From the IMG/VR virus record IMGVR_UViG_3300025648_000568, positions 1 to 24,207 of that record: a DNA stretch of 24,207 bases; one strand, written 5' to 3'. Origin of the DNA: a virus. The notes under the pieces were generated by a model. It worked only from the letters and a program-made list of their open reading frames with translations. It searched no databases and was not told the origin of the DNA. The position numbers and the translations under genes were made by a program. Below, piece by piece: positions 3,168 to 22,521 of this stretch (position 1 is the stretch's first letter; each line of letters starts with the position of its first letter).

Positions 3168-3172
3168 AGGAC

Positions 3173-3189
3173 TTGGCACGGAAATTGCT
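3173..3189 (+). promoter_or_regulatory. Sigma-54-type -24/-12 promoter motif
   Basis: TTGGCACG (3173-3180), four bases, then TTGCT (3185-3189). This equals the RpoN consensus YTGGCACG-N4-TTGCW at every defined position, with GG and GC 12 bases apart. It would place the transcription start near 3200, just after the scaffold stop and before the capsid gene. A related element occurs at 13370-13386 and on the minus strand at 22505-22521. What is seen is the motif; that it works as a sigma-54 promoter, rather than as a phage polymerase promoter or another protein-binding site, is inference. No activator-binding repeats are evident upstream, where the scaffold gene lies. Confidence 0.6.
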
Positions 3190-3246
3190 AGTAAGTATCT
3201 TGCTTCAACAGACGAAGGGCATCGTCACCGTGCTACTACTTTCTAA

Positions 3247-3295
3247 AGGGCATTAGAGCAACAGTTAAACCCTGTCTCTAATGCTCTATTGTTTT
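3247..3295 (+). terminator. Terminator-like hairpin before the capsid gene
   Basis: Arms 3247-3258 and 3276-3287 pair over 12 positions (one G-T), with an inner four-pair extension 3261-3264/3272-3275 after a two-base bulge and a seven-base loop. It is followed by ATTGTTTT (3288-3295). This has the form of an intrinsic terminator for transcripts of the portal-scaffold block. Because the sigma-54-type motif lies upstream of it, it could also end a short transcript of about 96 nt, or act as attenuator or 5' stabiliser of capsid mRNA. Confidence 0.6.
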
Positions 3296-3321
3296 AGGGA
3301 CTACAAAAGAAAGTAAATAAT

Positions 3322-4647
3322 ATGCCAGTGTTCTATAACCAGCCTGCTTCCTTCGGTAATGCTACCGTTGAAGATACAGCGCGGTTCAACCAACTCCCGT
3401 TCTACCTTGTTCGTAATGAGGTAAAACAGTTCCCCACGTGGTCAGTCTTTGACCAGTTATACGGCGACATTGATTGGCAAGCGAATGAAGGTAACACTAT
3501 GAAAGGTGTTACTCCTCAGCGTTCTCCAGTCTCTCGCTCGTTCTTCCATCCGAACGCTATCACTACTGTCCCTAATAAGGATGTGTATCAAGTGACTGAA
3601 TCGGTTGAACAGGCCGTGCTTTATATGCACGACTATGAATCCTTCCAGTTCAACTTCCTTCCTTCGTTCACTGTGTTCTGGAAGAACTACTTGCAGTTTG
3701 CTAACACTGATATCGTTCGTCAGATTGCTATCAGTAATAACCAGTTCATCGAGACTATGATGTGGGAAGGTTCTCCTTACTACTACATCGCTGGTGTTGG
3801 TCTCCAGTATGGTGCTCCTACTGCTCTTGGTAACGATGCCGGAACTGCTGCTAACAGTAAGACGTCTGCTTGGCTTGTTGCTGTTACTCAAGGTACTGGT
3901 GGTGTTGCCGGTATCTCTACTACTGGTCTCCGTCTCCGTGACGTGTTCAATGCGTTCATGGCTCTTCAAGAAGACTTGGCTGCTCCTGCCTTTGATGGCA
4001 GTAAGAACATGCCTAAGGATAATGAAGGCTTGAAAGGTAAGTATGTTCTCTTAGTTCCGTCTGAGGACTTCCTTAACTTCTCCTTCGACCCCGACGTGTT
4101 GAACAAACTTCAAGGTCTCGCTCCTTGTGACTTGAACCTGTTGTTCAATGACTTCAAAGGTCTCCTGTTCGGGTTTATGACCTGCAAGATTAACAAGTAC
4201 CCTGTCCGTTACAATACGGCTGATGTGCTTGATAACGCTGGTAACGTCTTGTACGCGAAGGGTACTCCGGTTGCTCCTGAAATCTTCGATGCTACGGACA
4301 ACAAGTGGAAACCTAATCCGTACTACACTTCACGTATCACTGCTCCGAATACCATTACTTGGATTCTGGGTGCTGACCGCGCGAAGACTATCAAGGTTGG
4401 CCCTCCGCCGAAGGAGTTTGCTACCACCAACATGAGTGCTAAGAAGTTCTATTCTATGCGCTGGAATGGTGAAGTTCAGTTGACTGACCAAGTTCTCATC
4501 TTTGATGCGAACGGTACTCCGTCTCTCAACAACTATGGCAAACAACTTAAGTTCATCAGCGAGTTGACTCATGGTTATCTCGAAGGTGAACGGCGTCATG
4601 CCTTCCCGATTCTGTCGAAACGCACCCGTCCACAGAATGTTGTCTAA
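3322..4647 (+). CDS. Major capsid protein
   Basis: Encodes 441 residues with no signal peptide. Identification rests on position directly after the scaffold, size within the range of phage coat proteins, aromatic-rich globular composition, and a codon use clearly biased to C-ending codons (TTC, AAC, TAC) compared with neighbours, as expected for the most abundant product. I cannot assign it to a specific coat family from sequence alone; an HK97-type fold is the default inference. The leader contains AAAGAAAG about 9-16 bases before ATG and no classical Shine-Dalgarno sequence; the same AAAGAAAG recurs before the gene at 4682. The gene has its own upstream regulatory gap (promoter motif 3173-3189, hairpin 3247-3295), and the capsid plus 4682 unit is closed by the hairpin at 5201-5237. 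Confidence 0.7.
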   Translation: MPVFYNQPASFGNATVEDTARFNQLPFYLVRNEVKQFPTWSVFDQLYGDIDWQANEGNTMKGVTPQRSPVSRSFFHPNAITTVPNKDVYQVTESVEQAVLYMHDYESFQFNFLPSFTVFWKNYLQFANTDIVRQIAISNNQFIETMMWEGSPYYYIAGVGLQYGAPTALGNDAGTAANSKTSAWLVAVTQGTGGVAGISTTGLRLRDVFNAFMALQEDLAAPAFDGSKNMPKDNEGLKGKYVLLVPSEDFLNFSFDPDVLNKLQGLAPCDLNLLFNDFKGLLFGFMTCKINKYPVRYNTADVLDNAGNVLYAKGTPVAPEIFDATDNKWKPNPYYTSRITAPNTITWILGADRAKTIKVGPPPKEFATTNMSAKKFYSMRWNGEVQLTDQVLIFDANGTPSLNNYGKQLKFISELTHGYLEGERRHAFPILSKRTRPQNVV

Positions 4648-4681
4648 TCCCTAACAATTAACTAAAGAAAGACTCAATACA

Positions 4682-5188
4682 ATGAAAAAGTTAATCATCT
4701 CCCTCGCTGTTGCAATTGGACTCGGTAGTGTTGCACAAGCTCAGAACCTTACGTTCTCTGCGACTGTTGCTACTAACACCATGTCCTCTCTTGTGACTGG
4801 CCCGTTCAAAGTCATTCAGTTGGTTGTAACGTCTACTGGCAATGCCTCTGGCTATCTGGTTGATAGTTACACTAACTCGACTGTCTATACTAATGCTGCA
4901 TATACTAACATTGTTAGTTATGTCACTAACATGCCGGCTATCTACACCAATTACTTTGGTGTTCTTAGCACGAATGCTGACTACCTCGGCAATCGTAACG
5001 TGTTAGTTGATGTGACGAATAGTGTTGCTGCATCTACGAATAACTTGCCGTATGTTGCTGTGTCATGCACGACTACTCCTACTGTTGTGAATAACATGAA
5101 CACGGTATACAGTCGTGGTGTTTGGTTTACGAACACCTCTGCTACTGGCAATTCAGTCACAGTAACGGTGACTGGTATCCGTCAATAA
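4682..5188 (+). CDS. Secreted Thr/Asn-rich protein after the capsid
   Basis: Encodes 168 residues. It starts with a clear Sec signal peptide: basic MKK, hydrophobic core LIISLAVAIGLG, and an AQA cleavage site near residue 20. The mature part is beta-rich and full of repeated Y-T-N / V-T-N / S-T-N segments. No known domain is recognised. It follows the capsid gene after 34 bases, with the same AAAGAAAG leader, and the pair is closed by a strong hairpin at 5201-5237, so it is probably transcribed at capsid level. The slot usually holds a decoration or head protein, but a Sec signal is unexpected for a protein assembled in the cytoplasm. A periplasmic or outer-surface role late in infection (for example exclusion of other phages) is possible. 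Function unknown. Confidence 0.75.
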   Translation: MKKLIISLAVAIGLGSVAQAQNLTFSATVATNTMSSLVTGPFKVIQLVVTSTGNASGYLVDSYTNSTVYTNAAYTNIVSYVTNMPAIYTNYFGVLSTNADYLGNRNVLVDVTNSVAASTNNLPYVAVSCTTTPTVVNNMNTVYSRGVWFTNTSATGNSVTVTVTGIRQ

Positions 5189-5200
5189 TCGTGGTCAATC

Positions 5201-5250
5201 GTGGTGCTATCTGGAGCATGTCTCTAGGTAGCACCACTCTTCCCTTTCTT
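5201..5250 (+). terminator. Strong hairpin terminator after the capsid pair
   Basis: Arms 5201-5216 and 5222-5237 pair over all 16 positions (14 Watson-Crick, two G-T) around a five-base loop CATGT. A pyrimidine/T-rich tail TCTTCCCTTTCTT follows at 5238-5250. It begins 12 bases after the stop of the 4682 gene. It is the strongest hairpin I see in the window and looks like an intrinsic terminator ending the capsid transcript. The ATG at 5218 is within its loop, which argues against that codon as start of the following gene. Confidence 0.7.
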
Positions 5251-5253
5251 ATT

Positions 5254-5577
5254 ATGATTAGAACAATTGGAACTTGTGAAAAGAATATAACTCCAGTACC
5301 TGCTAATGCCATTGTAGTACCTGCTGGCGTCTCTAAAGAAGTCATACCTGATGGTTCCGGAAAACCTACTGAACGTGCTTATGCTACGATTCAGAATGTT
5401 GGAGCTAACATTGCTTATTATGCTTTTGGACAGACCTGTGATAATGTTAGTAACTTCCATGGTGTTCTTCCACAGTACTCTGCTGTTCCAATCCCCTCTG
5501 CTGACCAAGTGACTGTATTCAGTCCTGCTGGAACTACTATTGCTGTTACTATCTTCACTCGGGATGAAGGCATTTAA
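5254..5577 (+). CDS. Small beta-rich protein, possible virion accessory
   Basis: Encodes 107 residues from ATG 5254. This start is chosen over ATG 5218 because 5218 lies in the loop of the terminator-like hairpin, and because TTATTATG fits the start context used through the window. The sequence (RAYATIQNVGANIAYYAFG in the middle, then alternating polar and hydrophobic strands ending in TIFTRDEG) has the pattern of small all-beta virion proteins often found near phage head genes, in which an 'iqN.g...iyyafG' strand pair recurs. That likeness is from memory of such proteins, not an alignment. No signal peptide. No promoter is seen between the hairpin and the start, so expression may depend on read-through. 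Confidence 0.6.
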   Translation: MIRTIGTCEKNITPVPANAIVVPAGVSKEVIPDGSGKPTERAYATIQNVGANIAYYAFGQTCDNVSNFHGVLPQYSAVPIPSADQVTVFSPAGTTIAVTIFTRDEGI

Positions 5578-5580
5578 TCT

Positions 5581-7206
5581 ATGAAATTAACTCTTTTAGC
5601 TTTACTTGCTAGCAGTGGGCTAGTATTAGCTGGCCCTGTTCCTGTTGTATCTGGTGGTGGAGGTTCTAGCACGTTGCCGAGTTATGTGGTGACGAACGCG
5701 CCCCTTAACATTAACAACGGTGGCACGTTAACCAACTTAATGGCGACAAACCTTGTTGGCTCACTTCCAGTTGCATCGCTGCCGACTGGATTATCAACCA
5801 ATGCCTTATCCTACAACGCTTCATTTATACCATCGTTAATCGCTACCAACCCGCTAAAGCAATCAAACCTCTACATTGGGTATAATGGAACATATGTTAA
5901 CATGTATGGTGACTCAGTTATGATGGGAGCCCTGTCAGACCTACCATCACCAACTGGATTTGACCATTACTCATTCGGTGATTATGTCCGTGTCCTTTCA
6001 TCCTCTAACTACATGGCGGCTGGCTCTGGTTCCGCAATAGCGACAAACATCAACTGGGGCTGGCCCATTAGTGGTGGAAATGGATACACGCTTGACTACA
6101 TGTTTGGTGGCCAAAGCCTGACCAACGTGTCCCTTGCATATCAGGTTCTTATTGAGGCTGGGGTTGCCGACATTTTGATAGGCAACTGCAACTCTAAATT
6201 TCCCACTCCCGACCTTTATTATTACAGCCTAATCACAAATCTTGTCGCGCAGCAGCTAGTCAAATTTGGAAGGTCGACTAGAACAGTAATTTGCACACCC
6301 GTTGGTAGCCAGACAGCCAGCGCGTGGACCAATAATCATCCGTGGCTGTTCACTAACTTATTCACATTCATAAGGTCAGGTGTTCCACAGTTCAACCTAA
6401 CAAACCTTAATAATTACGCCGGAACCAATGCGGCTGGATTCGTAATCACCACCAATCTTGATACCTACGATAAATATGTCACTTATATCTACAATGTTCA
6501 AGTTGCGTTGTTAAAGTTTGCCGCAACCTACGGCGGGTCAAACTATGTTGACATAGCTCGTTTTGACAATATGCAGACTGCATATGGAGCATCTTCTCCC
6601 GATGGCTGGCATCCGAACACAGGGATGCAAGTCGAGTTCGGTAAGCGGGTTTATGATGCGTGGTGGAACTCCAAAAAGGATTACACGGAGGTTCCGATAC
6701 CACAAGGTTTCTTCTTGGTGAGCAATGGGTTTGGCCCCAATACTCTGTCACGAACCTTGCCAATCTCACAGATTCCTACCAATGTCGTGCCGTCCATCGC
6801 CTTCCAGCTACATGACCAGACCAACAGCTACACGGCGACCACGACCTATTCTGCCCTGACCAACTACACGACCTTGCAGAATATGAGGTCTGACATTTTT
6901 GGCGGTAATCTATCTGCTGGATACATCACGAATCTGGTGAATGGCACATACTTGATTTCATTCAACTGCTCTGTCCGGTTCGGAGCAAATAACACCGAAG
7001 CCATATTCACCGTCCTGACGAATGGTGTTGATGCTGGTATCGAAAGCTGGTGGGGTGGCTCTAATCCGGCCTCGGCTACCTCCGGCTCTGCCATCGGTGT
7101 CCTCTACCTTCCAGCCAACAGCACGATTTCGGTTGGTGTGAAAGTCCAGTCCGGCACCTTGAATATAACCAATGTCGCTGGCGGATTGATTGTGACGAAG
7201 CAATAA
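5581..7206 (+). CDS. Secreted SGNH/GDSL hydrolase with C1q-like C-terminus
   Basis: Encodes 541 residues. There is an N-terminal Sec signal (MKLTLLALLASSGLVLA, cut before GPV), a Gly/Ser and Thr-Asn-rich linker (about 25-95), then an SGNH hydrolase domain: block I GDS with nucleophile Ser112, block III GNCN (201-204), and block V DGWH with Asp341 and His344. Residues about 405-541 form a separate beta domain of C1q/TNF-like type (GTYLISFNCSVRF, then a Leu-Pro-Ala-Asn-Ser strand near the end), typical of phage and bacterial surface-binding tips. SGNH enzymes deacetylate or de-esterify glycans and lipids, so a surface-polysaccharide esterase is the likely role. After the first ~80 bases, base use becomes more GC-rich than the neighbours: 58% in the 60 bases from 6781 against 42% in the 60 from 5281. 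Confidence 0.8.
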   Translation: MKLTLLALLASSGLVLAGPVPVVSGGGGSSTLPSYVVTNAPLNINNGGTLTNLMATNLVGSLPVASLPTGLSTNALSYNASFIPSLIATNPLKQSNLYIGYNGTYVNMYGDSVMMGALSDLPSPTGFDHYSFGDYVRVLSSSNYMAAGSGSAIATNINWGWPISGGNGYTLDYMFGGQSLTNVSLAYQVLIEAGVADILIGNCNSKFPTPDLYYYSLITNLVAQQLVKFGRSTRTVICTPVGSQTASAWTNNHPWLFTNLFTFIRSGVPQFNLTNLNNYAGTNAAGFVITTNLDTYDKYVTYIYNVQVALLKFAATYGGSNYVDIARFDNMQTAYGASSPDGWHPNTGMQVEFGKRVYDAWWNSKKDYTEVPIPQGFFLVSNGFGPNTLSRTLPISQIPTNVVPSIAFQLHDQTNSYTATTTYSALTNYTTLQNMRSDIFGGNLSAGYITNLVNGTYLISFNCSVRFGANNTEAIFTVLTNGVDAGIESWWGGSNPASATSGSAIGVLYLPANSTISVGVKVQSGTLNITNVAGGLIVTKQ

Positions 7207-7243
7207 ACCTTGTTGTTATGCTAGAACTCTTCGCTAACTTGTT

Positions 7244-7253
7244 AAAGGCTACA
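7244..7253 (+). promoter_or_regulatory. Ribosome binding site deciding the start at 7254
   Basis: AAAGG (7244-7248) with a five-base spacer before ATG 7254. It favours this start over the in-frame ATG at 7218, which has no such sequence. It is one of few Shine-Dalgarno-like sites in the window. Confidence 0.5.
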
Positions 7254-7514
7254 ATGGAAAAGACAAACAAACATGGAAAGGAAAGCATAAACACACTCCT
7301 CTTGTTAGCTGTTCTTTACCTAGGTTATCAAGACCACTTGGCGATTGTGAGGAATACAGAGCAAACAACCGCACTTGCTCATGCGCTTAAGTGGAAGTTG
7401 AACATTAATGTCAACGAACAAAATGGTCGCCCTGTCAATGAAAGTAAACGGTATGATGCCTCTGACATATCGTTTGCAGAAAACAACACAGAGACAACAA
7501 AGAGAAAGAACTGA
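7254..7514 (+). CDS. Single-span membrane protein, possible i-spanin
   Basis: Encodes 86 residues from ATG 7254 (or 98 from 7218). A short basic N-terminus (MEKTNKHGKES) is followed by one hydrophobic segment (INTLLLLAVLYLGY, about residues 12-25) and a hydrophilic, Asn/Glu/Lys-rich tail of about 55 residues. This N-in/C-out layout fits inner-membrane spanins, and a lipoprotein gene lies two genes downstream (7739), as in two-component spanin pairs. A signal-anchor membrane protein of other function is equally possible; no family was recognised. The next gene starts four bases after this stop. Confidence 0.6.
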   Translation: MEKTNKHGKESINTLLLLAVLYLGYQDHLAIVRNTEQTTALAHALKWKLNINVNEQNGRPVNESKRYDASDISFAENNTETTKRKN

Positions 7515-7518
7515 TAGT

Positions 7519-7734
7519 ATGTTAATGAGTCTGTTAAAAAGCCAAACTGTTCGCAACTGGCTATTGCGTCGTCTAGCTACCGCTGCTGGTGCTACACTAG
7601 TGACTAGTGGCTTGTTGAACCAATCACAAGTAGCTGATGCTTCTGGTGCGTTGTTAGTGTTAGCATCTGTCGCCCACTCACTGTGGGAGAAACGTGACCA
7701 GATTAAACAAGAGATTGCTGACCTAACCAAATAA
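7519..7734 (+). CDS. Small two-span membrane protein, holin candidate
   Basis: Encodes 71 residues from ATG 7519 (a second ATG at 7525 would give 69). It has a basic N-terminus (KSQTVRNWLLRR), a first moderately hydrophobic helix (LATAAGATLVTSGLL), a short polar turn, a second helix (ASGALLVLASVAHSLW), and a charged C-terminus (EKRDQIKQEI). Small size, two Ala/Gly-rich helices and charged tail fit class II holins, which form the inner-membrane lesions that end infection. The open frame continues upstream to 7408, but that part overlaps the previous gene and reads as shadow. No endolysin gene is recognised in the window. Confidence 0.55.
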   Translation: MLMSLLKSQTVRNWLLRRLATAAGATLVTSGLLNQSQVADASGALLVLASVAHSLWEKRDQIKQEIADLTK

Positions 7735-7738
7735 CAAT

Positions 7739-8116
7739 ATGAAGAAACTCTTTATCATTCCGTTGCTAGTGTTGTGTGGTTGTGCCAACACTCAGATTAT
7801 CCAGAACTCTCATGTCTCTGGTGTTAAGACAAGTGCCGGAATTCCTATCCCGTTCTCTGGTGGCCAATCATTCTTGACTGTTAGCTTGGCCGCTGGTGAT
7901 ATCAAAGACAATGTAATTGTACAACCGACTAGCACTAACACGTTGAATGTCGGTGCTGTTACTATCGCACAGAACACTTATTCAACTGCTGGTGTCAATG
8001 GTAATGCTGGTACTAATAACTCTGCCGGTATTGCTACATTGCAACATGACCAGAACATCATTAGTACGACCGGTAGTGTCAATTCTACTAATGGTTCAGT
8101 GAACATCACTCACTAA
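7739..8116 (+). CDS. Lipoprotein, possible o-spanin or surface lipoprotein
   Basis: Encodes 125 residues. The start MKKLFIIPLLVLCGCAN is a lipoprotein signal with a lipobox at L-C-G-C (Cys15 expected to be lipidated). The mature part is small, Gly/Asn/Ser/Thr-rich and without charged coiled coils. Coming right after two small membrane proteins it completes a plausible holin/spanin cassette, with the lipid anchor in the outer membrane. Against that, it lacks the proline-rich or helical stretch of many o-spanins, so it might instead be a superinfection-exclusion or other surface lipoprotein. The start is five bases after the previous stop, in the context AACAATATG. Confidence 0.7.
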   Translation: MKKLFIIPLLVLCGCANTQIIQNSHVSGVKTSAGIPIPFSGGQSFLTVSLAAGDIKDNVIVQPTSTNTLNVGAVTIAQNTYSTAGVNGNAGTNNSAGIATLQHDQNIISTTGSVNSTNGSVNITH

Positions 8117-8125
8117 CACAATACT

Positions 8126-9349
8126 ATGTCAGAGCAAACCCATCCACCGTATGCTGCAGGGAGTAAGACTATCCCTCGTACGCTTATCCGTTGGCTAGAT
8201 GTTAATGCACAGAACGGACAGCTGACTCGTACTCAGACGTTCATTACTTTGCCTAACTTTAATCAAGGGATTTCAACGTGGAATGGGTACTCTGACATAG
8301 TGGCTTCTTTCAATATTGAGTCACCTAATGCTTTCTCTCTACTAGGTCTTAGTAAGAATGTTCCTGTCAATCCTAACTACACTCTCACAATATCATACCG
8401 CATTGGCGGTAAAGTGACTCGCTACTTACTGTGGGATGCTGTTGGCAGTAACCTCAACCAGAACATAGCTGCATATACTGGTCAACCTATAATGAAGAAT
8501 TGTAGGTTTGAAGTATGGAATACTTCACAAGGTGTAGCTAGTCAGACAAATGCTGCTACATTATATACATCAGTTGCTGGTGGACAAGATTATAGGTATG
8601 GTACTGATATTGTATTAGTCAATCCTGATACTGAGAATAACTCATTTGCTAACACACAAACGGTGCAAGTTGTTAATCCTTTTGACCAGTTCGCTATACC
8701 TTACTTAGGCAACGGTGCATACTTTGATAATAGCGGTAATCTTGAGGTTCCGGCTAATGACCCTAACAATAACATCCTTAACCCTACTGCTGGAGTAATA
8801 GACTTGCCTCTGTTAACATTTAACTCTAATGCTGCTTTCTCAGAGGAGGTTATTCAAGGAGACTATTACCGTCAAATGGTAGTAGCTGGCTCTTATGGAG
8901 GTTTTGAACTTGGCCATTGGAATGGTACTACTCTTACAAATGCTCAGTTTACACTTACTATAAGTGGCAACTCTGTTACAGCTTCTTATTTACCTACCAG
9001 CAAAAGCATAACAATAAACTATCCTACAGCATCAGGTGAGATAACTATAGCTGTACTATCATTCTTGTCTGGGACTACACTAACACTAAGTGTATACAAC
9101 GGGTCTGGAATACTACAAGCTACAAGCAGCGTTAATACACTGGTGGTAAGCGATTTCAGAGATGCTGTATCCAATGCACTAGCCATCAAGCTAGCTCCAT
9201 CTTGTGTTAGAATCTTGGGCATGGTACTCTGTGGTGGTCTCAGTAGTGCATTACCCGCTCCTCAAGATATTGCTGGTTACTTTGCAGCATTACAGGGTTT
9301 TCAGCTACCTCTAACATTTCCGGCAACCTCAGTCAGTACAACAAACTAA
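8126..9349 (+). CDS. Putative virion or fibre protein
   Basis: Encodes 407 residues with no signal peptide or membrane helix. Composition is Ser/Thr/Asn/Gly-rich with long predicted beta stretches: TLTISYRIGGKVTRYLLW near the start and alternating strands at about 260-330. The C-terminal 60 residues are more hydrophobic, with two cysteines (CVRILGMVLCGGL). I recognise no family. The position just before a fibre-like gene and the tail-tube genes, and the beta-rich make-up, suggest a structural part of the head-tail or fibre complex. It starts ten bases after the lipoprotein stop, in the context AATACTATG. Confidence 0.55.
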   Translation: MSEQTHPPYAAGSKTIPRTLIRWLDVNAQNGQLTRTQTFITLPNFNQGISTWNGYSDIVASFNIESPNAFSLLGLSKNVPVNPNYTLTISYRIGGKVTRYLLWDAVGSNLNQNIAAYTGQPIMKNCRFEVWNTSQGVASQTNAATLYTSVAGGQDYRYGTDIVLVNPDTENNSFANTQTVQVVNPFDQFAIPYLGNGAYFDNSGNLEVPANDPNNNILNPTAGVIDLPLLTFNSNAAFSEEVIQGDYYRQMVVAGSYGGFELGHWNGTTLTNAQFTLTISGNSVTASYLPTSKSITINYPTASGEITIAVLSFLSGTTLTLSVYNGSGILQATSSVNTLVVSDFRDAVSNALAIKLAPSCVRILGMVLCGGLSSALPAPQDIAGYFAALQGFQLPLTFPATSVSTTN

Positions 9350-9357
9350 CATAATAT

Positions 9358-10485: not shown

Positions 10486-10489
10486 TCAT

Positions 10490-11476: not shown

Positions 11477-11482
11477 AAGACT

Positions 11483-13345
11483 ATGAGTGAAATCGTAACT
11501 CAGAAAGGTTCAGAGTATAATCAGTCCTCCTTCATTGGAGGAATGAATCTCTTGCTAGATGATACTCGACTACAACCTAACCAATACAGGATTGGGTTTG
11601 ACTTGACCAATAGATATGATGTTCTAGACCCTGTCTTAGCGTCTGAACTAGACCACCAGATGCCTAATGGTATTGTACAGGAGCTTGTCACATTCGGTAA
11701 TTACATCATAGTCTTCGTCTCAGGCTCTGCTTACTACCGCTACTACACTGAGATAGCTTGGACACAGATTGTTGGATTCAAAATGTCTCCCACAGCATCT
11801 AGGTATTGGACTGTAGCTGTTCCTGTATCTACCACGAACTATGTAAGGTTTGCCGCTGACGCAGTGACTCTTACTACTGGCAATGTAGCTAACCCTGCTG
11901 GTGGTATCAATGTACTCAATGTTGCTGGCTCATTCACTGGTAATTTGCCCGGACTTCTTGTACAAGATAACATCAATCAACCTGTATTCATCTTCCTCGA
12001 TGCTCTTGGTGTACCTGCCTCTCGCATTACACAAGACTATAATAAGTGGATGATTACTTATACAGATGAACACAATACTGTTCTAGCTAATAAAGGGGAT
12101 GCTAGAGAGTATGTTCCTATTGGTAATTGCATGGCTTGGACTAATGGGATTCTGTTTATAGTGTCGCAAGACTTCAACAGTATCTACCGCTCTGTGTCTG
12201 GGCGTCCTCTAGACTTCGTGGTTAATGTTACTAATCTCCTAGCTACCAATACAGAAAGCATCACGGTATACAACACGCACGGTCAGGCTATTAACATACT
12301 TCCGTTTACCCAAATCCCCGGCGGTGATGCTGCCTCAACCAACTATAGTGTTGGCGTTGGTGGAATATCTTGCATACGTCCCCTGTCTACTGGTGGTATC
12401 TTCGTAGCAGCTAGTAACGCTAACTTCGCTGTCACACTCAACCAGACTCCCAACGCACCAACACTATTTGGGGAGTACACGTTCAACCGTACATTCTTAT
12501 TCAACTCTACCTGCTTGTCAGACAGAGTTATCTTCGACACACTCGGTGACACTCGATTCATTGAACTCACTGGTATCCGCTCTTTCAACGCCGTACAACA
12601 GGTTCAGAACGAGGGTAAGAATTCTCCATTCAACTCTGCAATACATGGAGTCTTCGGGCCGGATGAGAATCCCGTGATTCAAAACGCTTCCGCTGCCGCC
12701 GCGATATTGTACAATAACTACGAGCTATACGCTGTCAACACTATCTTTGGTTATTGTATCGCTAAGTACGATACTATCAACAACTGTTGGACTTCGTTTG
12801 ACATACAGCAAACTGGTGGTAAAGCTATTAAGATGTTTGCTAAGATTGAGTTGTCTATTGCTCGTCTCTATGCAGTAACGACTGATAACCGTCTATATAC
12901 TCTTTACATTGGCCCGAATGTAACATCACCTTCTTTCCGTACGCTTGGCATCTGTTCATCTATCCTGTGGGCTGGTAATACAGTTCGTATGGCTCACCCT
13001 AAGCTAGAACTACGGATGGAGAAGGTAAGAGCTATCATTAACAAGATTACCGCTGACAGTACTTGTTCACTGACACTCTACTGTAATAACAGACAGAGTA
13101 AGACTGGTGAAGTGGTCAAGAATATTACATATGACGAATCACCAAACCCTACTACAGGTGTTACAGTATTACCAGATGTAGACACCATGCTCTTGAACAT
13201 CTGCTGGCCTACTATGGAAGCAGAGCAAGGATGGAAATACTTTGGTATCTTTACATGGAGTAATGGTTCTTTCACACAGTTCTCAACAGAGATGCAAGAG
13301 CTTACTCCAATGAATCCTGAGTACACACAAGGAAGAGTCGAATGA
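11483..13345 (+). CDS. Tail nozzle / tail tube protein B-like
   Basis: Encodes 620 residues. The opening (SSFIGGMNLLLDDTRLQPNQY) has the 'G.n....d...l.pne' form common at the start of podoviral tail-nozzle proteins. The rest is beta-rich with repeated short strands and Asn/Thr/Tyr, compatible with the propeller-like platform of T7 gp12. It follows the adaptor gene and precedes internal-virion genes, as in T7. It starts six bases after the previous stop and ends with an ATGA overlap into the next gene. Function: forms the tail tip through which DNA passes. Assignment rests on order, size and N-terminal pattern. Confidence 0.6.
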   Translation: MSEIVTQKGSEYNQSSFIGGMNLLLDDTRLQPNQYRIGFDLTNRYDVLDPVLASELDHQMPNGIVQELVTFGNYIIVFVSGSAYYRYYTEIAWTQIVGFKMSPTASRYWTVAVPVSTTNYVRFAADAVTLTTGNVANPAGGINVLNVAGSFTGNLPGLLVQDNINQPVFIFLDALGVPASRITQDYNKWMITYTDEHNTVLANKGDAREYVPIGNCMAWTNGILFIVSQDFNSIYRSVSGRPLDFVVNVTNLLATNTESITVYNTHGQAINILPFTQIPGGDAASTNYSVGVGGISCIRPLSTGGIFVAASNANFAVTLNQTPNAPTLFGEYTFNRTFLFNSTCLSDRVIFDTLGDTRFIELTGIRSFNAVQQVQNEGKNSPFNSAIHGVFGPDENPVIQNASAAAAILYNNYELYAVNTIFGYCIAKYDTINNCWTSFDIQQTGGKAIKMFAKIELSIARLYAVTTDNRLYTLYIGPNVTSPSFRTLGICSSILWAGNTVRMAHPKLELRMEKVRAIINKITADSTCSLTLYCNNRQSKTGEVVKNITYDESPNPTTGVTVLPDVDTMLLNICWPTMEAEQGWKYFGIFTWSNGSFTQFSTEMQELTPMNPEYTQGRVE

Positions 13346-13752
13346 GTGCACGACAATACAAGATAGCAATTGGCACGATTCATGCTGATATTATTGGTAT
13401 GCAACCTACTGTCAAGGACTTGCTAGACTTTGTGATGGCTAATAAGGGTGACAAATGTTTTCAAGGACAAGACAGTAGTACTATTCTTAGATACCTGATT
13501 GAATGTCTCGATAACAATGCTCTCTATTATGAGACTGACCTTGAGGGTAGGATAAATGGAATGATACTAGCTAGGTTTGACCACACAAGGAAAGTAGCAT
13601 TTGTCATGGAGAATCTAGCAATGTCTCTTGAACGTCTTGGTCGGTTTGCAACCAAGTTGCATAAAGAACATCCAGACTATAACATCGAAGCTTATCGTCA
13701 CGGGCATCCAGTTAAAATCAATACTAACAAACTAATTTCTAAACTCCTATGA
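13342..13752 (+). CDS. gp13-position protein, GNAT-like fold suspected
   Basis: Encodes 136 residues. It sits where T7 has gene 13 (138 residues), whose homologues are often annotated as acyltransferase-like. The middle (LYYETDLEGRINGMILARFD) reads as the GNAT beta-turn-beta ('...gg.i.G...') followed by a helix (SLERLGRFATKLHKEHPDYN), but no clear acetyl-CoA loop Q/RxxGxG/A is present, so it is probably not an active enzyme. The start overlaps the upstream stop (ATGA) and has AAGGAAGAG six bases upstream. A second in-frame ATG at 13399 falls two bases after the transcription start predicted from the sigma-54-type motif at 13370-13386 and would give 117 residues. Confidence 0.5.
   Translation: MSARQYKIAIGTIHADIIGMQPTVKDLLDFVMANKGDKCFQGQDSSTILRYLIECLDNNALYYETDLEGRINGMILARFDHTRKVAFVMENLAMSLERLGRFATKLHKEHPDYNIEAYRHGHPVKINTNKLISKLL
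13370..13386 (+). promoter_or_regulatory. Second sigma-54-type motif, inside a gene
   Basis: TTGGCACG (13370-13377), four bases, ATGCT (13382-13386). GG and GC are 12 bases apart, and there is one mismatch (A for T) to the TTGCW box. The predicted start is near 13397, next to an in-frame ATG at 13399. It lies at the head of the ejection-protein genes (13342-22024), a sensible place for a late promoter, but it is within coding sequence, so chance cannot be excluded. Confidence 0.4.
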
Positions 13753-14669: not shown

Positions 14670-14673
14670 TACT

Positions 14674-15012: not shown

Positions 15013-15024
15013 CTAAATACTATT

Positions 15025-16344
15025 ATGGGACAAATACGAGAATTACTTGGTGAAGGTCTGTATGGGAGTGCCCCACAGCTAGACCAAAACTATAGACCCC
15101 TTACTGTAACAGAAGGCGGTGACTACGTTGACCAGCATGGTAATGTTGTACCTGATGAACAGGCTGCGGCAGCATCAGCTAATCGTTACCGAGTGCCCGG
15201 ATTCTTCGAGAGAATCTTAGCTCCTCAAGTTGCTAGAGAAGAGACCCTTGGCAACAATGCAGCTAAAATAGCTGACTATAATCAACAGATTCTCCATGAG
15301 ACTGCTATTGAAGAGGCACGTAGAAATCAGCCTTACTTACCGACAGGTTTGACTAATAGTGCAGAAGAGCAGTATGCTAAGTTTGGGAATAACCATGTCA
15401 GCGACTCACAAGCTGTTCCAGAGATTAAAGCTAAAGCTGCTATTGCTACAGGGTATTTGCCTAGCATAGGTGCAACTGATACATCTACACAAAAGACTCT
15501 ATCAGACATAGGCAATACTACAGCTACTTTTAATCAAGGCAGACTCCCCACTTTACAGGCAACTACGACACAATTAGATAAAAATGCTTTAGAAGAAGCT
15601 AACATGACTCCTGCTGAGCTTGCTCTTAAGCGTAGACAGACAGAAGGAGAAGCCAGTACACTAGACCAGAAGATTGCCAATACAGTTGCTGAATTAAAGC
15701 GACTTGGCTATGATACAGATACAGCGTTACATATAGCGCGAGTACGCAATAGTATGTTACCTCAGCAAGAGGAGACTGCTAGAAACATAATTGGTAAAGA
15801 CTTGTTCAGTTCTAGGAGAATGGAAGCACCATCCAGTCTATATGACATAGGACTTCATGGAGACTCTGCTTCACTACAAAGAGAGCCAATGGCTGTAACA
15901 CCTGCTATGATGAAACTAGCAGGGATTGATAGCATGACAGGCAAGCCAGGTCAAACTACTACACTCAGTTCTGGCAGAACTGTAAATGTTATGCCCTCAG
16001 AGTCATTGCAAGAGTCCTCTGCACCTACAGACAGGCCTCCAATTAATGATACCTTTAGGGGTGCCGGCGCTTCTGGAGATTGGAGTGATGGCTCGAAAGC
16101 TACTGTCAATGACAAAGGTGCAATTGTTGGTGATAAAGAAGTTGACAATCTAGTGGAAGCAATGAACAGAGAACACGCTCAACATGGCAATTCTCAAGTG
16201 TATCTTAGGATGCATCAACAGTTAGAGCAACTACACAATGATAAGATTGTTAAGTTGCAAGAGTTGAAACAAGCATTAAGTAGAACTAATCCTAATTCTA
16301 GACAGGGTGCTAACATTCGTCAAGCAATTGCTCAATTACAATAA
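15025..16344 (+). CDS. Internal virion (ejection) protein candidate
   Basis: Encodes 439 residues, mostly helical and rich in Ala, Gln, Thr and charged residues, with heptad-like stretches at about 175-235 (TPAELALKRRQTEGEASTLD, IANTVAELKRL) and at the C-terminus (MHQQLEQLHNDKIVKLQELK). No signal, no membrane segment and no enzymatic motif seen. It occupies the T7 gp15 position directly before the giant gp16-position gene, so an ejection-tube or core component is the best inference. The start ATTATGGG is 13 bases after the previous stop, without a Shine-Dalgarno sequence. The next gene starts one base after its stop. Confidence 0.6.
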   Translation: MGQIRELLGEGLYGSAPQLDQNYRPLTVTEGGDYVDQHGNVVPDEQAAAASANRYRVPGFFERILAPQVAREETLGNNAAKIADYNQQILHETAIEEARRNQPYLPTGLTNSAEEQYAKFGNNHVSDSQAVPEIKAKAAIATGYLPSIGATDTSTQKTLSDIGNTTATFNQGRLPTLQATTTQLDKNALEEANMTPAELALKRRQTEGEASTLDQKIANTVAELKRLGYDTDTALHIARVRNSMLPQQEETARNIIGKDLFSSRRMEAPSSLYDIGLHGDSASLQREPMAVTPAMMKLAGIDSMTGKPGQTTTLSSGRTVNVMPSESLQESSAPTDRPPINDTFRGAGASGDWSDGSKATVNDKGAIVGDKEVDNLVEAMNREHAQHGNSQVYLRMHQQLEQLHNDKIVKLQELKQALSRTNPNSRQGANIRQAIAQLQ

Positions 16345-16345
16345 T

Positions 16346-19300
16346 ATGGCTTTATCAGACTTTACTCCAGAAGAGATTGCAGAGATGCAGTCTAAAGGCA
16401 TAGACCCTAGAACAGCATCTTTAGTTGAAACACCTAAGCATGAGGATGAGAAACAGTCTATCCCTCGTGCTATCCTTAACCGCCTCAAAGCTGGTGCTGG
16501 TGGTATAGTTGGTGGTGGTGCTGGTGCTTTAGGTGGTGCTGAGTTAGGTGCTATAGCTGGTGCTCCTCTTGCTATCCCTACTGCCGGTATCTCTGAAATT
16601 GTTGGCCCACTAATAGGTGGTATCGCTGGTGGTATGGCTGGCGGTGCAGCTGGTGAAGCTGGACAGCGTGCTCTCCTCAATCCGGAACTTCAAGCCTCAC
16701 TAGAGGCACAAGCCCAACAGGCACAAGAGCAACACCCGTATGTCTCTGCTGCAACTGACATTACTGCTGGTGCTCTAGCATCTGGTGGTAGATTCTCTCC
16801 AACGACACCGTTGAAAGCTCTCATGGGTGACAAACGTGCATTAGCGAATGTGGCTATGCAAGCTGGTGTGTTACCTGCTATTAATACAGGCATTGACCTA
16901 GCGCAGGGTAAAGATATCAGTGGCGGGGATATACTCAAACAAGCTGTTGGTGGTGCTCTATTTGCTGAACCTTCTGCTCTTGGTAGAAAGTTTGGAGGTC
17001 TACGAGAACCAGCTGCTGAGCCTAATAACAAAGGAGAACAGGATAACTATGAAGGCACTACTATTCCTCCTGATATTTCTCCTTATACTCAAAAAGGGGA
17101 ACAAGGATACGCGATAGATGATGCTATCGTTAAGAAGCACTTCATCGCTGCTAATCCTAAACCTGAACCTACCGGTAACTATACTGACGACGCTATTGCG
17201 ATGACAGCATGGAAGCGGAAAGTTGGTATACCTATTGATGAGATGCGTGGTGCTCTACATGAGAAGTTCATAGCGTCTAAAGCTATGGGTGTTGAACAGT
17301 CTCAAGAGCCTTTGAAGATGGCCAAGGAAGGGGATGAAGGAGTTGTTACTAAGAATGAAGCTGACCAAGTATCAACTACTGGAGACTCATTCCAGTCATT
17401 TAAGACTATGGCTCAAGAGCATCAAGAAGCTCAAGAAGCTCTAGCTAAGAAAGAGACTGAAGAAGCACAACCATTGAAAGATGGTGAACTTCCTAAGCCA
17501 GTCTCCGAGAATACTCTACGAATTACTAAGGACTCGTTCTTACCTAATGATGTTAACAGACCGGAAGTTAGACCTGAGGTTAACACCGTTCCGCTGACGC
17601 CAGACCAAGCTAATGAGGCTCGTAAGTTGATGACTCAGAACAGGGGTCAAGGTGATAAGAGAACTGAAGCTGAGCGTATTCAGGACGAGATGGAGGGCAA
17701 TGGTGCTAGATACTCTGAATCCCGCATTGACCCCAAAGACCTAGCTCGCTACAACGAACTCCAACAGCAACAGCAAGCTATGGAGAAAGCTGGTACTCAT
17801 ATCAATGACACCGGACTACATCCTGACTTCGTCAAAAACTGGCATGAGATTGAAGCGTTGAAGAATAAATACGGTGGCACTAAGGTTAAGAGTGAAGGTT
17901 CCGGAATGAACAGAGCAGTACCATTCAATGAGCATCAAGAATACTGGATGACACCTGAGGGTACACTAATGCCAATTAAAGCTGGTATGTCTGGAGGCCA
18001 TGCTGAATTTGCAAAAGAATACTTGAAGAACTATAAAGATGTTCCTGAAAGAGGTAGACTTGAGGCTCCATATAGTTACATGTTTGCAAAGAAGTATGCT
18101 AGAGTAGCTAGAAGTGGTAATGATTTATTAGTTGAGAATCCAAGAGGTCTTACCAATGCTCAAAAAAGAGAGCTTAAGAATGTTGGTATTGAGCGTAATC
18201 TTAATGTTACACAATATGATAACTCTGTTAAAGACTTCAAACCAAGAGTTATTCATGATATCTCGTCTTATTCCGAAGGTAGGGTACCTACCAAATTAGC
18301 CTATCAAACGGAGTCAACTCCTGTCGCTGTTCGTGACCATATTAACACCGGTAGAGCTACTACTGGTTCTGTGATGAAGATGCTTGCAGAGTCACATGGT
18401 CACCCTATGCAGCCTCTCGCTAAGTGGTTGTGGCAGAATATGGATTCTTCCTCTAGGAAAGTCAAGTGGAACTCTTCACCTCTGTTAGACCGTTCTCACT
18501 ATGACCCAACTGGAGATGAAGTCAACATCCACACTCTCGATGTGAACCATGCTCCTACACTCATGGAAGAAGCTATTCATTCCATGACGTCAGCGAAGTT
18601 GCCTAAGGAGTGGAACGGACTAAGGGGTGCTGAGTTGAAGTCCGCGATGGATAAGTTCTCTAAGGAGAATCCTAATCACCCATTGAGAAGACTGGTTGAT
18701 GCTTATTCCGCTACCGCTGAACATCTAGGAATGACTAATAGACTTTTTGGTAATGAAGGGACTGCTGGTAATCCAGATGAAGTTAAATCTTCTGAGCATC
18801 CGGGCCGAAGTTATGCCTACGCCATGGGTGACTTACATGAGTTCATTGCTCACGCTTTTAAGAACAAAGAGTTTCAAGAGATGCTCAACAAGATACCTGC
18901 TAATGATGGAACTCCTAGGACTATGTGGCAGAGAATTGTTGATGCTATATCTCATCTGCTTGGTATGCCTGTCAAGGCTACTTTTATGCTTGACCATGTC
19001 TTGAGGCATAGTAGTGAGTTGATTTATCGGGAGCGAGGCGGTGAAGGTGGTAACAGTATCTCCAATGCTAGTCACTACGGTCTAGTCCCCCAAGAAGGTA
19101 AGCTAGGTCGTCAAGGATGGTACACATCCAAAGACCCTGCTTTGTCTGCTCTGTCAGTACATATCTCTGACGACGCTATCCACTTGGTCAATGTAGAAGC
19201 TGCTGAGAAAGGTAAGGGCGCTGGTACTGCTCTACTTGAGAAGTTAAAAGCTATGTCTGACCAGACTGGTAAACCTATTAAGTTGACAGCTGAGTCCTTG

Positions 19301-22024
19301 GATAAGAGTGTCAATCCACGCTTAGAGAAGTTCTATGAGAAGAATGGTTTTACTAGAGATGTGGATGGGCAGAATGACTTTACTTATAAGCCTAAGGAGA
19401 GTGTTAAGACAGAAGAAACTCCAGAAGAACGTCGTCTAAGAGAGCTTAAGGAAGATAGAGAAGAAGCAGCTAGTCTCCACAATGGTGGTGCTGCAGAAGA
19501 GTATCGTCGTGTCAAAGATAAGACTGAGAAATTTGACAAGATGCGTCAAGCTGTACACGGTGCTGAGATGACTCCAGAGGAGAGGATGAAGCAGAACCGT
19601 TCCCGCCCTGTCAATCAAGAAGTTCCGTCAACGACTGGCAATGACTTCGGCAAGTTCAAGAAGATGTTCGGTAGCGTGCTGGACAACCTGCGCGCTGTGC
19701 CTCATGAAGGTGCTAAGGTGTTGGCTGACGCATACCAGAGAGCCTTAGACTACAGACAACACCTGACTGGCAAGTACACTAACCCTATCGTAGAAGCTGG
19801 CAAAGGTCTGACGCATAAGGATATGCAAGACCTTAACAGGGCTATTGAGCAGCACATGACCAAGAAGATTGCTATGCCTGAGGGACTGAGTCCTAAGGCT
19901 AAGGAGTTCTTCAAACTAGCTATAAGCAAATATAAAGAGTTCGGTGATGAACATATCGCTAACAATATACCTATCAAAGACAGCAATGGTAACATGCGTT
20001 TGATGGTTAAGAAGGACTTCAAGTTGCCTACTATGGCTAACCAGAACATTGAGAATATGTTTAGGAAGGGTGAAGATGTAGAAGGGATGCAGAAGGCTAA
20101 GAAGGAATACATTGACTACAATAAGAATGTCTTAGGCAAGACTCAAGAAGAAGCTGAGTCTATGTTCCATGACTGGAAGAAGTCTGTTACTAATAGCTTT
20201 GGAGGTTCCGGCATTTCACACCAAGACTTCTTTAATGCTATCCGTAAGTCTATGGGTGACCCACTCCCGCCTACTTGGAGAGAGCAGAATCCAGTTAGGA
20301 ATATGCAACGGTACTTCGACCGTGCTGGACTGGCTATGGCTCACTATGCTAAAGTAGAGTCTAACCACAAAGCTATGGCTGCTCTTGGTGCTACTAAGGA
20401 TGCTTGGGGTAACGCTATACCACAGTATCCTGAAGGTGCAGTCGCTAGTAAGTATGCTCAGAGTGCTGTTGGACAGTTCCACAGTACACCTAAAGATACT
20501 ACTATGCAGACTGAGGAAGGTGCAAGTGGATTGGCAACTGCCCTATTCATTGCATCGCCGGGATTGGAAGTACATAAAGTGGGGTCTAACTTCATCAAAG
20601 CTGCACTATACGCTCCTAACCCTTATGTCGCTGTCAGAGCTATTGGCAACGGTATCATGCATATGCGCGAAGGTTGGACTCATGCTAAGGAGGGTGGACT
20701 CATTAAGTTGACAGCTGCTTCTGCTGCTGACATGTTTGACAACTCTCTGAATACTCACCAGAGGATGGCTGGTATCGCTCGACTAGTTAGGAACATCTCA
20801 ACACTAGGTGAACTGACTACTAAAGCGAACGCAGCTTATCAACAAGCCTACTTCGAACACTTACTCCCAACACTCGTCAACCGTGCTAATGCTGGTGATG
20901 CTAATGCTACAAGGATGATGAAGCATTGGGATACAGATTACACGCGAGGGAAACAATATTCCGCTGACGCAATGAAGCAACTAGCTTCTACTGCTGCATC
21001 ATATGTCCACGGTACTGGTGATATTCGCCAGATGCCAGCGTGGATGATGAATGAGGGTGAGATATCTGGGTTCATGCAGCTGGCTCACTGGTCAGTTGCA
21101 CAGACTAATAACTTCATGCACGACGTGTGGTTGCCTGCTAAGAAGGGCAATCTGACACCACTAGTGACTGGTCTATTTGGCTCTGCTGTTGGTGGTTATA
21201 TTATCAAAGAACTTCGTGAAGAGATACAAGGGAAGAAAGGACAGATACCATCTCTGAATGAGATAGCTTCGTCCGAAGGAGGGTTGAAAGGTAACATACC
21301 ATTGCTAGCATACAATGCTATTGCTGGTATGCAATATGCTGGATTTGGTGGCTTGTTCTCACAAGTAGCTAAGTACCCGTTCGATGCTGCTTACAAGAAC
21401 TCATTACAGTCTGCTACGTTCCCGCTCGATGAAGTTGCGTCAGATATAGCTGAGACTGCACATCAAGTTGCTACTGCAATGGCTAACGACCCTAACGTAA
21501 ATTATGTAGACCTAGCTGCTCAAGTAGCACAACACGTATTTGGTTCTAACATCAAGCTGGCGTCTATTGCCTTGAATCAGGGAATCAATAATGGATATGT
21601 GACTGGTATGCCAGCTGAAAAGAAGAAGCTAGCTGACAAGCTTGGAGAACTAAGAAGGTTCGATATGGTTACTGGACTACCTTATAATGAAGTGGACGCT
21701 GGTAGTAACCCGTTCATGAACATCGAACAGAGGAAGTTTAAGATGGAACAAGACCCTGCGAAAGCAGTTGCTATGGTTGTTCCTATGATACATAACATCA
21801 TGCTCAAGTACGGGAACAACCCTGATGTTATGATGGAGAAGATAAAGGCATTGAAGCAGAACTCATATGCTACTATGCCATCACTGGAGAATACTCCTTT
21901 GTCATTCTTTAAGTATATCAACTACTTGAACAAAGAAGAAGGTGAAGGTAAAGCGCAGGAAGCACTACGTGACTACCTCCACCACAAGGTCATTAACGAA
22001 GCTAAGGCCAGTACTATACCGTAA
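16346..22024 (+). CDS. Giant polyvalent ejection protein, degenerate zincin plus GNAT
   Basis: Encodes 1,892 residues from ATG 16346 (AATAATATG, one base after the upstream stop; the frame is open to 16307 but overlaps the previous gene). Order: Gly/Ala-rich hydrophobic region about 48-110, likely membrane-active; a disordered charged part to about 520; a region about 530-635 with a W..P.G...GH..FA pattern seen in phage polyvalent proteins; a zincin-like domain about 720-860 where the expected HExxH is EEAIH (741-745), with HEFIAH at 831-836; a GNAT domain about 918-1015 with acetyl-CoA loop KGKGAG (955-960) and FYEKNGF; then a long helical part to the end with further hydrophobic segments. 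T7 gp16-position proteins form the inner ejection channel, so this product probably enters the host with the DNA. Enzymatic roles are inferred. Confidence 0.75.
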   Translation: MALSDFTPEEIAEMQSKGIDPRTASLVETPKHEDEKQSIPRAILNRLKAGAGGIVGGGAGALGGAELGAIAGAPLAIPTAGISEIVGPLIGGIAGGMAGGAAGEAGQRALLNPELQASLEAQAQQAQEQHPYVSAATDITAGALASGGRFSPTTPLKALMGDKRALANVAMQAGVLPAINTGIDLAQGKDISGGDILKQAVGGALFAEPSALGRKFGGLREPAAEPNNKGEQDNYEGTTIPPDISPYTQKGEQGYAIDDAIVKKHFIAANPKPEPTGNYTDDAIAMTAWKRKVGIPIDEMRGALHEKFIASKAMGVEQSQEPLKMAKEGDEGVVTKNEADQVSTTGDSFQSFKTMAQEHQEAQEALAKKETEEAQPLKDGELPKPVSENTLRITKDSFLPNDVNRPEVRPEVNTVPLTPDQANEARKLMTQNRGQGDKRTEAERIQDEMEGNGARYSESRIDPKDLARYNELQQQQQAMEKAGTHINDTGLHPDFVKNWHEIEALKNKYGGTKVKSEGSGMNRAVPFNEHQEYWMTPEGTLMPIKAGMSGGHAEFAKEYLKNYKDVPERGRLEAPYSYMFAKKYARVARSGNDLLVENPRGLTNAQKRELKNVGIERNLNVTQYDNSVKDFKPRVIHDISSYSEGRVPTKLAYQTESTPVAVRDHINTGRATTGSVMKMLAESHGHPMQPLAKWLWQNMDSSSRKVKWNSSPLLDRSHYDPTGDEVNIHTLDVNHAPTLMEEAIHSMTSAKLPKEWNGLRGAELKSAMDKFSKENPNHPLRRLVDAYSATAEHLGMTNRLFGNEGTAGNPDEVKSSEHPGRSYAYAMGDLHEFIAHAFKNKEFQEMLNKIPANDGTPRTMWQRIVDAISHLLGMPVKATFMLDHVLRHSSELIYRERGGEGGNSISNASHYGLVPQEGKLGRQGWYTSKDPALSALSVHISDDAIHLVNVEAAEKGKGAGTALLEKLKAMSDQTGKPIKLTAESLDKSVNPRLEKFYEKNGFTRDVDGQNDFTYKPKESVKTEETPEERRLRELKEDREEAASLHNGGAAEEYRRVKDKTEKFDKMRQAVHGAEMTPEERMKQNRSRPVNQEVPSTTGNDFGKFKKMFGSVLDNLRAVPHEGAKVLADAYQRALDYRQHLTGKYTNPIVEAGKGLTHKDMQDLNRAIEQHMTKKIAMPEGLSPKAKEFFKLAISKYKEFGDEHIANNIPIKDSNGNMRLMVKKDFKLPTMANQNIENMFRKGEDVEGMQKAKKEYIDYNKNVLGKTQEEAESMFHDWKKSVTNSFGGSGISHQDFFNAIRKSMGDPLPPTWREQNPVRNMQRYFDRAGLAMAHYAKVESNHKAMAALGATKDAWGNAIPQYPEGAVASKYAQSAVGQFHSTPKDTTMQTEEGASGLATALFIASPGLEVHKVGSNFIKAALYAPNPYVAVRAIGNGIMHMREGWTHAKEGGLIKLTAASAADMFDNSLNTHQRMAGIARLVRNISTLGELTTKANAAYQQAYFEHLLPTLVNRANAGDANATRMMKHWDTDYTRGKQYSADAMKQLASTAASYVHGTGDIRQMPAWMMNEGEISGFMQLAHWSVAQTNNFMHDVWLPAKKGNLTPLVTGLFGSAVGGYIIKELREEIQGKKGQIPSLNEIASSEGGLKGNIPLLAYNAIAGMQYAGFGGLFSQVAKYPFDAAYKNSLQSATFPLDEVASDIAETAHQVATAMANDPNVNYVDLAAQVAQHVFGSNIKLASIALNQGINNGYVTGMPAEKKKLADKLGELRRFDMVTGLPYNEVDAGSNPFMNIEQRKFKMEQDPAKAVAMVVPMIHNIMLKYGNNPDVMMEKIKALKQNSYATMPSLENTPLSFFKYINYLNKEEGEGKAQEALRDYLHHKVINEAKASTIP

Positions 22025-22493
22025 GTCTGGCTAAGTTATTTACCAAATCTCCGACGTATGGTTGAGATATTTTAAACATCTTTGCTAAATCACTCTGTGA
22101 GTACTGTCCAGTAGCATACAGTTTTCGCATCTCCTGAATCTTGTCAAAAGTTAAAAATGCATTTGCATTGTCTATACCCAGTTTAACCCTATTTCTATCA
22201 TACATATCCCTTACATTATCTTTTTGAGTTCCAATATAAAGATGTTCTGGGTTTACACATCTTGGATTGTCACATTTGTGTAATAAATTATCAGAATCTT
22301 TTAAAGAATTTCCGTATATTATCCATGATACTCTGTGAGCCAATGCCTTACAATACTTTACACCATTTTGAGTTCCCACATATATTCTACCATAGCCATT
22401 AGGATTCAAGTCTGTTTGCCATTCCCAACATCCATTTTCTAGCTTAATGAATTTATTGAAGAAGTTCAGTTTTGTTTTAGCTGGTATAATCAT
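22014..22493 (-). CDS. HNH homing-type endonuclease with C-terminal helix-turn-helix
   Basis: Encodes 159 residues. The N-terminal part (GCWEWQ, NGYGRI) leads to AHR (52-54) and then LLHKCDNPRCVNPEHL with His72, Asn81 and His84, followed by GTQKDNVRDM: the classic free-standing HNH_3 arrangement. Residues about 113-155 form a helix-turn-helix (SQSDLAKMFKISQPYVGDLV) for DNA recognition. Such genes are selfish mobile elements that cut intron-less or gene-less alleles. Base use is much more AT-rich than neighbours: 25%, 30% and 37% GC in three 60-base lines (from 22261, 22141, 22381), which supports recent arrival. The 3' end overlaps the giant gene by 11 bases tail to tail. A sigma-54-type motif lies directly upstream. 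Confidence 0.85.
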   Translation of the reverse strand: MIIPAKTKLNFFNKFIKLENGCWEWQTDLNPNGYGRIYVGTQNGVKYCKALAHRVSWIIYGNSLKDSDNLLHKCDNPRCVNPEHLYIGTQKDNVRDMYDRNRVKLGIDNANAFLTFDKIQEMRKLYATGQYSQSDLAKMFKISQPYVGDLVNNLARLTV

Positions 22494-22504
22494 AATATAA
22501 TTAT

Positions 22505-22521
22505 AGCAGGTTTCGTGCCAA
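22505..22521 (-). promoter_or_regulatory. Third sigma-54-type motif, upstream of the HNH gene
   Basis: On the minus strand: TTGGCACG (22521 to 22514), AAAC, CTGCT (22509 to 22505). GG-GC spacing is 12, and there is one mismatch (C for T) in the -12 box. It predicts transcription starting near 22494, one base before the HNH ATG at 22493, hence a leaderless message. TATAAT overlaps at 22505-22500 but has no fitting -35 box. Confidence 0.5.

Follow-up and report, generated by a model that had tools for sequence, protein, structure and literature searches.

What does a word do that recurs three times, with no change in its fixed letters, in a piece of a phage genome? The stretch analysed here (the window, 24,207 nucleotides) is a 24.2-kb IMG/VR record and a fragment from a group of phages of ~50 kb. 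A reading of the sequence alone had noticed TTGGCACG-N5-TGCT in it, had judged the copies to be far above chance by an estimate made after the fact, and had proposed sigma-54 promoters, or else a promoter class of a phage RNA polymerase. Exact and mismatch scans bore out the three copies (Table 1) and added none: allowing up to two mismatches, no copy with one or two was found in the window, and TTGGCACG itself has no further occurrence on either strand. Only 0.002 exact matches are expected from base composition, and 0.01 from first-order Markov copies of the window. The count of the two-mismatch scan alone is not significant (19 of 100 shuffled sequences also reach three), and the argument for the element therefore depends on its exactness and, above all, on relatives.

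In form, the element is that of a sigma-54 site. All three copies have the GG-N10-GC register that marks -24/-12 promoters and the letters TGGCAY and TGC[AT], in agreement with the published consensus TGGCAC-N5-7-TTGCT (PMC12316311). A matrix trained only on relatives, whose sites had been found with the same core pattern, gives elements 1, 2 and 3 scores of 23.9, 22.7 and 21.6 bits. A sigma-70 reading of the copies was rejected, as the promoter scan did no better than shuffles.

Table 1. Positions of the elements, genes and RNA features discussed (window coordinates unless a locus is named)
Feature	Position	Strand	Basis or remark
Element 1, sigma-54-type -24/-12 promoter (TTGGCACG GAAAT TGCT)	3173..3189	+	exact match
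Leader hairpin A, GACGA[AGGGCA]TCGTC	3211..3226	+	stem test, covariation
Leader hairpin B, TTCTAA[AGGGCA]TTAGAG	3241..3258	+	stem test, covariation
Alternative long hairpin, GGGCATTAGAG...CTCTAATGCTC, then T-rich stretch	3248..3287	+	fold z-score; sequence
Putative major capsid gene, first gene after element 1	3322..4647	+	ORF; relatives 60-100% identical, same upstream element
Small conserved gene before ejection-type genes	13342..13752	+	tblastn homologues
Element 2 (TTGGCACG ATTCA TGCT)	13370..13386	+	exact match; least secure copy
HNH endonuclease gene	22014..22493	-	phrog_1872/6254, Pfam HNH_3
Element 3 (TTGGCACG AAACC TGCT)	22505..22521	-	exact match; intergenic
Noncoding stretch in relatives	L047 ~3180-3330, L053 ~3040-3170, L058 ~3800-3930, L062 ~3460-3590, L063 ~3210-3340, others		candidate noncoding RNA

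Relatives were collected through the capsid protein and comprise 11 contigs at 60-100% identity, ten of them 47-53 kb long and several with end repeats of 123-127 bases, as in circular assemblies. The element is enriched in them, with 4-11 TGGCAY-N6-TGCT sites per ~50-kb genome against 0-1 for the reversed control. When the spacer was varied from k=2 to 11, 76 TGGCAY-Nk-TGCT sites were found at k=6, 0-7 at any other k and two in the reversed control, and it is the N6 spacing that yields the GG-N10-GC register of sigma-54 promoters. The sites are mostly intergenic, often face the next gene and occur on both arms; the element, its spacing and its placement are established in these genomes. In a search for upstream enhancer sites, none of the genomes had a 9-mer in common to its sites more often than expected at random. 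One relative, L126 (JACTVG010000014.1), was binned in a Methanoregulaceae archaeon MAG from SPRUCE peat and is the sole match of host assignment by genome match; it is probably misbinned, because none of four control archaea match for sigma-54.

Element 1, which had been described as lying before the capsid gene, is correctly placed, and we regard this copy as secure. It precedes the ORF by 133 bp, and the product of that ORF is taken, from its place and conservation, to be the major capsid protein; the portal-, capsid- and tail-type genes of the window gave no PHROG or Pfam family match, and the capsid protein had no match among 50,697 deposited phage records (INPHARED). The element is found 124-176 bp upstream of the capsid ATG in 12 of 12 genomes, and a later capsid-alignment scan yielded 11 new, held-out loci, every one of which carries it (11/11). 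Since independent relatives have the element before the capsid gene, the after-the-fact caveat on the chance estimate no longer applies. At the capsid, the element is upstream of, oriented to and conserved at a transcription unit, a pattern that is weaker at copy 2. With a transcript start predicted at ~3200, element 1 probably drives the capsid gene and probably also the late operon.

Element 3 was likewise correctly placed before the HNH gene. Only 12 bp separate it from the HNH ATG, and its predicted transcript start, 22494, falls one base before that codon. In G003 the convergent genes that flank the site almost touch, standing only a few bases apart, which makes it probable that the HNH gene and element 3 were inserted between them as one unit. 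The segment at 22025-22559, in which the HNH gene has a sigma-54-type promoter to itself, may be a homing cassette tuned to the switch of the phage. Transcription is predicted to begin within ~5 bases of a start codon at copies 2 and 3, and likewise at about nine of the sites in relatives, which suggests leaderless messages. In the same part of the window, the 1905-aa ejection-type protein (16307-22024) contains a GNAT acetyltransferase-like stretch, scored above cut-off by Pfam Acetyltransf_10 at residues ~933-1006 of the translated stretch.

The remaining placement, copy 2 before the ejection-type genes, has held up less well. The small gene there begins either at 13342, where ATGA overlaps the upstream stop, or at ATG 13399, the start that most relatives match. 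Copies 1 and 3 might be real and copy 2 alone a chance or coding-derived match, an account that we consider quite possible if not the expected one. It draws on the position of copy 2 inside the ORF, and in its frame, when the start at 13342 is used; on the absence of a counterpart from five of six homologous genes (G003, G004, G005, G009 and G010); and on look-alikes elsewhere in the small gene of G003, G005 and G010, which reflect a conserved Gly-Met-Val/Ile-Leu-Ala coding motif. Against this, far fewer than one site with the score of copy 2 is expected per window, and the sixth homologue, in G002, has TTGGCATATTTTATGCT at the same place, keeping TTGGCA and TGCT. Moreover, copy 2 ends 12 bp upstream of ATG 13399 and would place a transcript start at ~13397, two bases before that codon. 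On balance, we lean modestly towards copy 2 being a real promoter.

The main weakness of the sigma-54 reading, the want of an activator, has disappeared because the ten ~50-kb relatives all encode one. A search with PF00158 found one gene in each (E 1e-53 to 1e-59); in one relative the contig ends interrupt the gene, which is whole once the contig is closed into a circle. In this search the controls match in all 14 genomes, because AAA+ proteins are related to one another; no archaeal control is left at a cut-off of 1e-10, and the phage E-values are far beyond it. The proteins, of 263-314 aa, combine the PF00158 domain with the features by which bacterial enhancer-binding proteins (bEBPs) are recognised: a loop that reads GAFTGA or GSFTGA in most of them and GSYTGS and GAYTGS in two, Walker A of the GxTGTGKE type, Walker B as F[LF]DE[VI]G, and the arginine finger FRxDLYxR. 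These are the parts that contact sigma-54 or hydrolyse ATP (PMC7175178), and gene and motifs alike are established in the relatives. The C-terminal helix-turn-helix (HTH) that marks bEBP groups 1-4 is missing because the proteins stop ~20-30 residues after the NVR sensor-2 motif, and no HTH family matched them; the lack of this domain, usual in the family, counts against our explanation. Receiver, GAF and PAS domains gave no Pfam match at the N-terminus, where a conserved part of ~65-110 residues has no Pfam name.

Structure prediction agrees with the assignment. An AlphaFold2 model of the activator (pLDDT 94.6) has the sigma-54 activators FleQ, NtrC4 and NtrC1 as its best PDB folds (~1e-23), and a viral structure library returned only remote AAA+ proteins of 11-20% identity. 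The matching PHROGs family, phrog_7998, is listed as of unknown function, and the INPHARED matches mostly look like bacterial contigs filed as phage, except for one gut phage. Activator-like proteins with a GAFTGA loop and no HTH were also observed in the viral contigs L087-L120 and in L137 (MT121960, gut phage DP SC_2_H4_2017); their genomes mostly lack the strict element and perhaps use other promoter variants. No phage-encoded RpoN was found in the relatives.

Element and activator gene are also linked by position. The first element usually lies 5-65 bases past the activator stop codon, or 200-600 bases past it in other loci, and none occurs within 400 bp upstream of the gene in the activator loci examined. 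Among 38 further activator-encoding viral contigs, 30 carry TGGCAY-N6-TGCT (169 sites versus two for the reversed control), which supports the sigma-54 reading beyond the ten relatives. The association is not strict outside the group, because the other eight contigs lack the strict element and, among the matches listed, only two of 23 contigs >20 kb with one exact element sequence have a PF00158 gene, most of the 23 carrying one to three elements; a strict two-way link across all viruses was rejected on this last count. IMG/VR contains at least 120 stretches with that exact sequence and four with its reversal. The natural reading of such cases would be that these phages depend on activators of the host for their isolated sigma-54 promoters. 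As regards the window species, the activator gene of G003 lies at 33.4-34.3 kb, past the homologue of the last gene of the window at 25.8-26.0 kb, so its counterpart should be located beyond the window end.

The same could be supposed for the whole group: its elements would be sigma-54 promoters fired mainly by host activators, according to nitrogen, flagellar or stress state, and the phage AAA+ protein would do something else. The many viral contigs with one to three elements and no activator gene are in keeping with this, as is the viral contig G052 (IMGVR_UViG_3300002275_000002; loci L156 and L195), which is 42.8 kb long and has 11 TGGCAY-N6-TGCT sites, and in which no PF00158 or PF00940 gene was found. 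It is nevertheless improbable, given that every ~50-kb genome of the group has an activator with a conserved sigma-54 contact loop, that an element closely follows the activator gene in most loci of the group, and that host activators usually need upstream sites, of which no shared word was seen.

We therefore favour, at a probability of roughly 0.87, a phage-encoded minimal AAA+ activator that would switch host sigma-54 RNA polymerase to phage promoters, chiefly that of the capsid operon. The three elements would be phage promoters for host RNA polymerase with sigma-54 (RpoN), and the activator a small AAA+ protein, free of receiver and DNA-binding domains, encoded outside the window fragment. 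It would be made early and from an ordinary promoter, because no sigma-54 element precedes its gene. Closed complexes of sigma-54 polymerase would wait at the elements until the activator assembles and remodels them with ATP through its GAFTGA loop, and the capsid and other genes would thereby be turned on together. The activator probably works free in solution and not bound to an enhancer, because it has no HTH and the promoters share no upstream site. For the phage of the window, we infer its own activator from what its relatives encode, and likewise infer transcription from the elements, the timing and a host RpoN.

Two readings that dispense with sigma-54 fare worse. The conserved word might be a signal for RNA processing, replication or packaging and not a promoter, but nothing specific favours such a signal beyond conservation of the word, and the mostly intergenic sites, often pointing to the next gene, in many copies on both arms, in the exact -24/-12 register and with one just after the activator gene, make it very improbable. 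The other option of the sequence-only reading is that the elements belong to a single-subunit RNA polymerase of the phage and are like sigma-54 sites in appearance only. It would suit a small number of strongly conserved copies scattered along the genome, as in T7-type promoters, but was rejected as barely credible, since the relatives contain no PF00940 (T7-type) protein in a search of this family, whereas phage T7, the control for this type of search, scored 1e-109, since the element has the conserved letters and the spacing of a sigma-54 site, and since a sigma-54 activator is present in place of the polymerase.

Between element 1 and the capsid gene, the capsid leaders contain a single hairpin or two in tandem, and the loop is always AGGGCA. 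Stems of at least four pairs enclose AGGGCA in 32 of 32 leader copies versus two of 154 elsewhere, and in the held-out loci alone in 13 of 13 versus one of 26. In 20 aligned hairpin units, 96% of the pair cells contain standard pairs and four of five pairs vary on both sides; the covariation score is 1.01, compared with 0.18 in shuffles, and not one of 500 shuffles attains it. In a separate comparison, 21 hairpins have the AGGGCA loop versus a mean of 1.2 for permuted loops. Words like GCYTCTAAT or GCTACTTTA stand before each hairpin in the capsid leaders of the window, L126-L136 and G001-G011, and the hairpins are almost confined to the leader. In the window and its nearest relatives, G002 and G003, a long attenuator-like and terminator-like hairpin would exclude hairpin B; the fold z-scores of the leader are -3.3 (window), -4.2 (G002) and -2.6 (G003). 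In an antitermination site of the lambda nut type, a hairpin with a conserved loop would follow a boxA-like word near the transcript start; the words before the AGGGCA hairpins (such as GCCTCTAAT or GCTACTTTA) show resemblance to boxA only. Our guess is that the AGGGCA hairpins may be a nut-like, attenuator or protein-binding signal.

A noncoding stretch of 400-600 bases follows the activator gene and element in many relatives. It has no Rfam match and contains a conserved, covarying hairpin (its loop, which follows GACTT, is similar to GTTGAACAGTAACATA) as well as another paired stretch, and it is a candidate for a new phage noncoding RNA under sigma-54 control. The Rfam search of leader and noncoding stretches gave nothing relevant. 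Separately, Rfam tRNA matches of 109-113 bases, tRNA-like with insertions and not called by ARAGORN, were observed in L055 (3353-3461) and L049 (3487-3599).

A broader proposal can be put forward only tentatively: that a tailed-phage group might base its late programme on sigma-54, through an enhancer-free activator acting at several promoters, with AGGGCA hairpins as new nut-like or attenuator RNA signals for read-through of the late operon and activator-linked sigma-54 promoters driving a structured noncoding RNA. Because sigma-54 promoters are silent until the ATPase acts, the virus would possess a tight, low-leak switch for its late genes, and its success would be tied to the sigma-54 status of the host. 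The group offers dozens of natural minimal activators with no DNA-binding domain, in which it can be asked how promoters are chosen without an enhancer. Since phrog_7998 is listed as of unknown function, its role could be annotated in many viromes.

The late-gene activators of other phages, such as T4 gp33/gp55/gp45, Mu C, P2 Ogr and lambda Q, work with sigma-70-type holoenzyme, via a phage sigma or antitermination. They share with the proposed system an earlier-made phage protein that redirects host RNA polymerase to late genes, but unlike the proposed activator they involve no ATP-driven remodelling of sigma-54.

Closer precedents are few. The genome of phage phi1422 has an annotated sigma-54-type regulator gene, suggested to be co-opted (PMC3391216), so that a regulator gene in a phage genome is common to both; no promoters or targets were described there, and no phi1422-type phage was among the tblastn matches listed for the activators of the relatives. 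Engineered M13 carrying pspF drives a PspF-dependent reporter (PMC11720261); here too a phage-delivered activator turns on sigma-54 promoters, the difference being that the construct is man-made. Beyond the phi1422 remark, no natural phage using sigma-54 promoters with its own activator was found in the literature searched, which was incomplete. The components are known; a phage that employs them, with a minimal activator, as a late switch of its own appears not to have been described. The bacterial sigma-54 promoters and their bEBPs (NtrC, FleQ, PspF) provide the -24/-12 element and the AAA+ protein with GAFTGA loop, Walker A/B and arginine finger, and bacterial bEBPs are the best sequence and fold matches of the phage activator; here, however, the protein is phage-encoded, its sites stand before phage structural genes, and HTH, receiver and evident upstream sites are lacking. 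Group 5 activators and FleT also lack the HTH, and FleT is described as the only known activator that has neither regulatory nor DNA-binding domain (PMC7175178). The phage activators resemble FleT and the FlgR/CtcC group in having no HTH, and differ from them in being phage genes, in their conserved N-terminal part, and in forming a large family where FleT is a single case.
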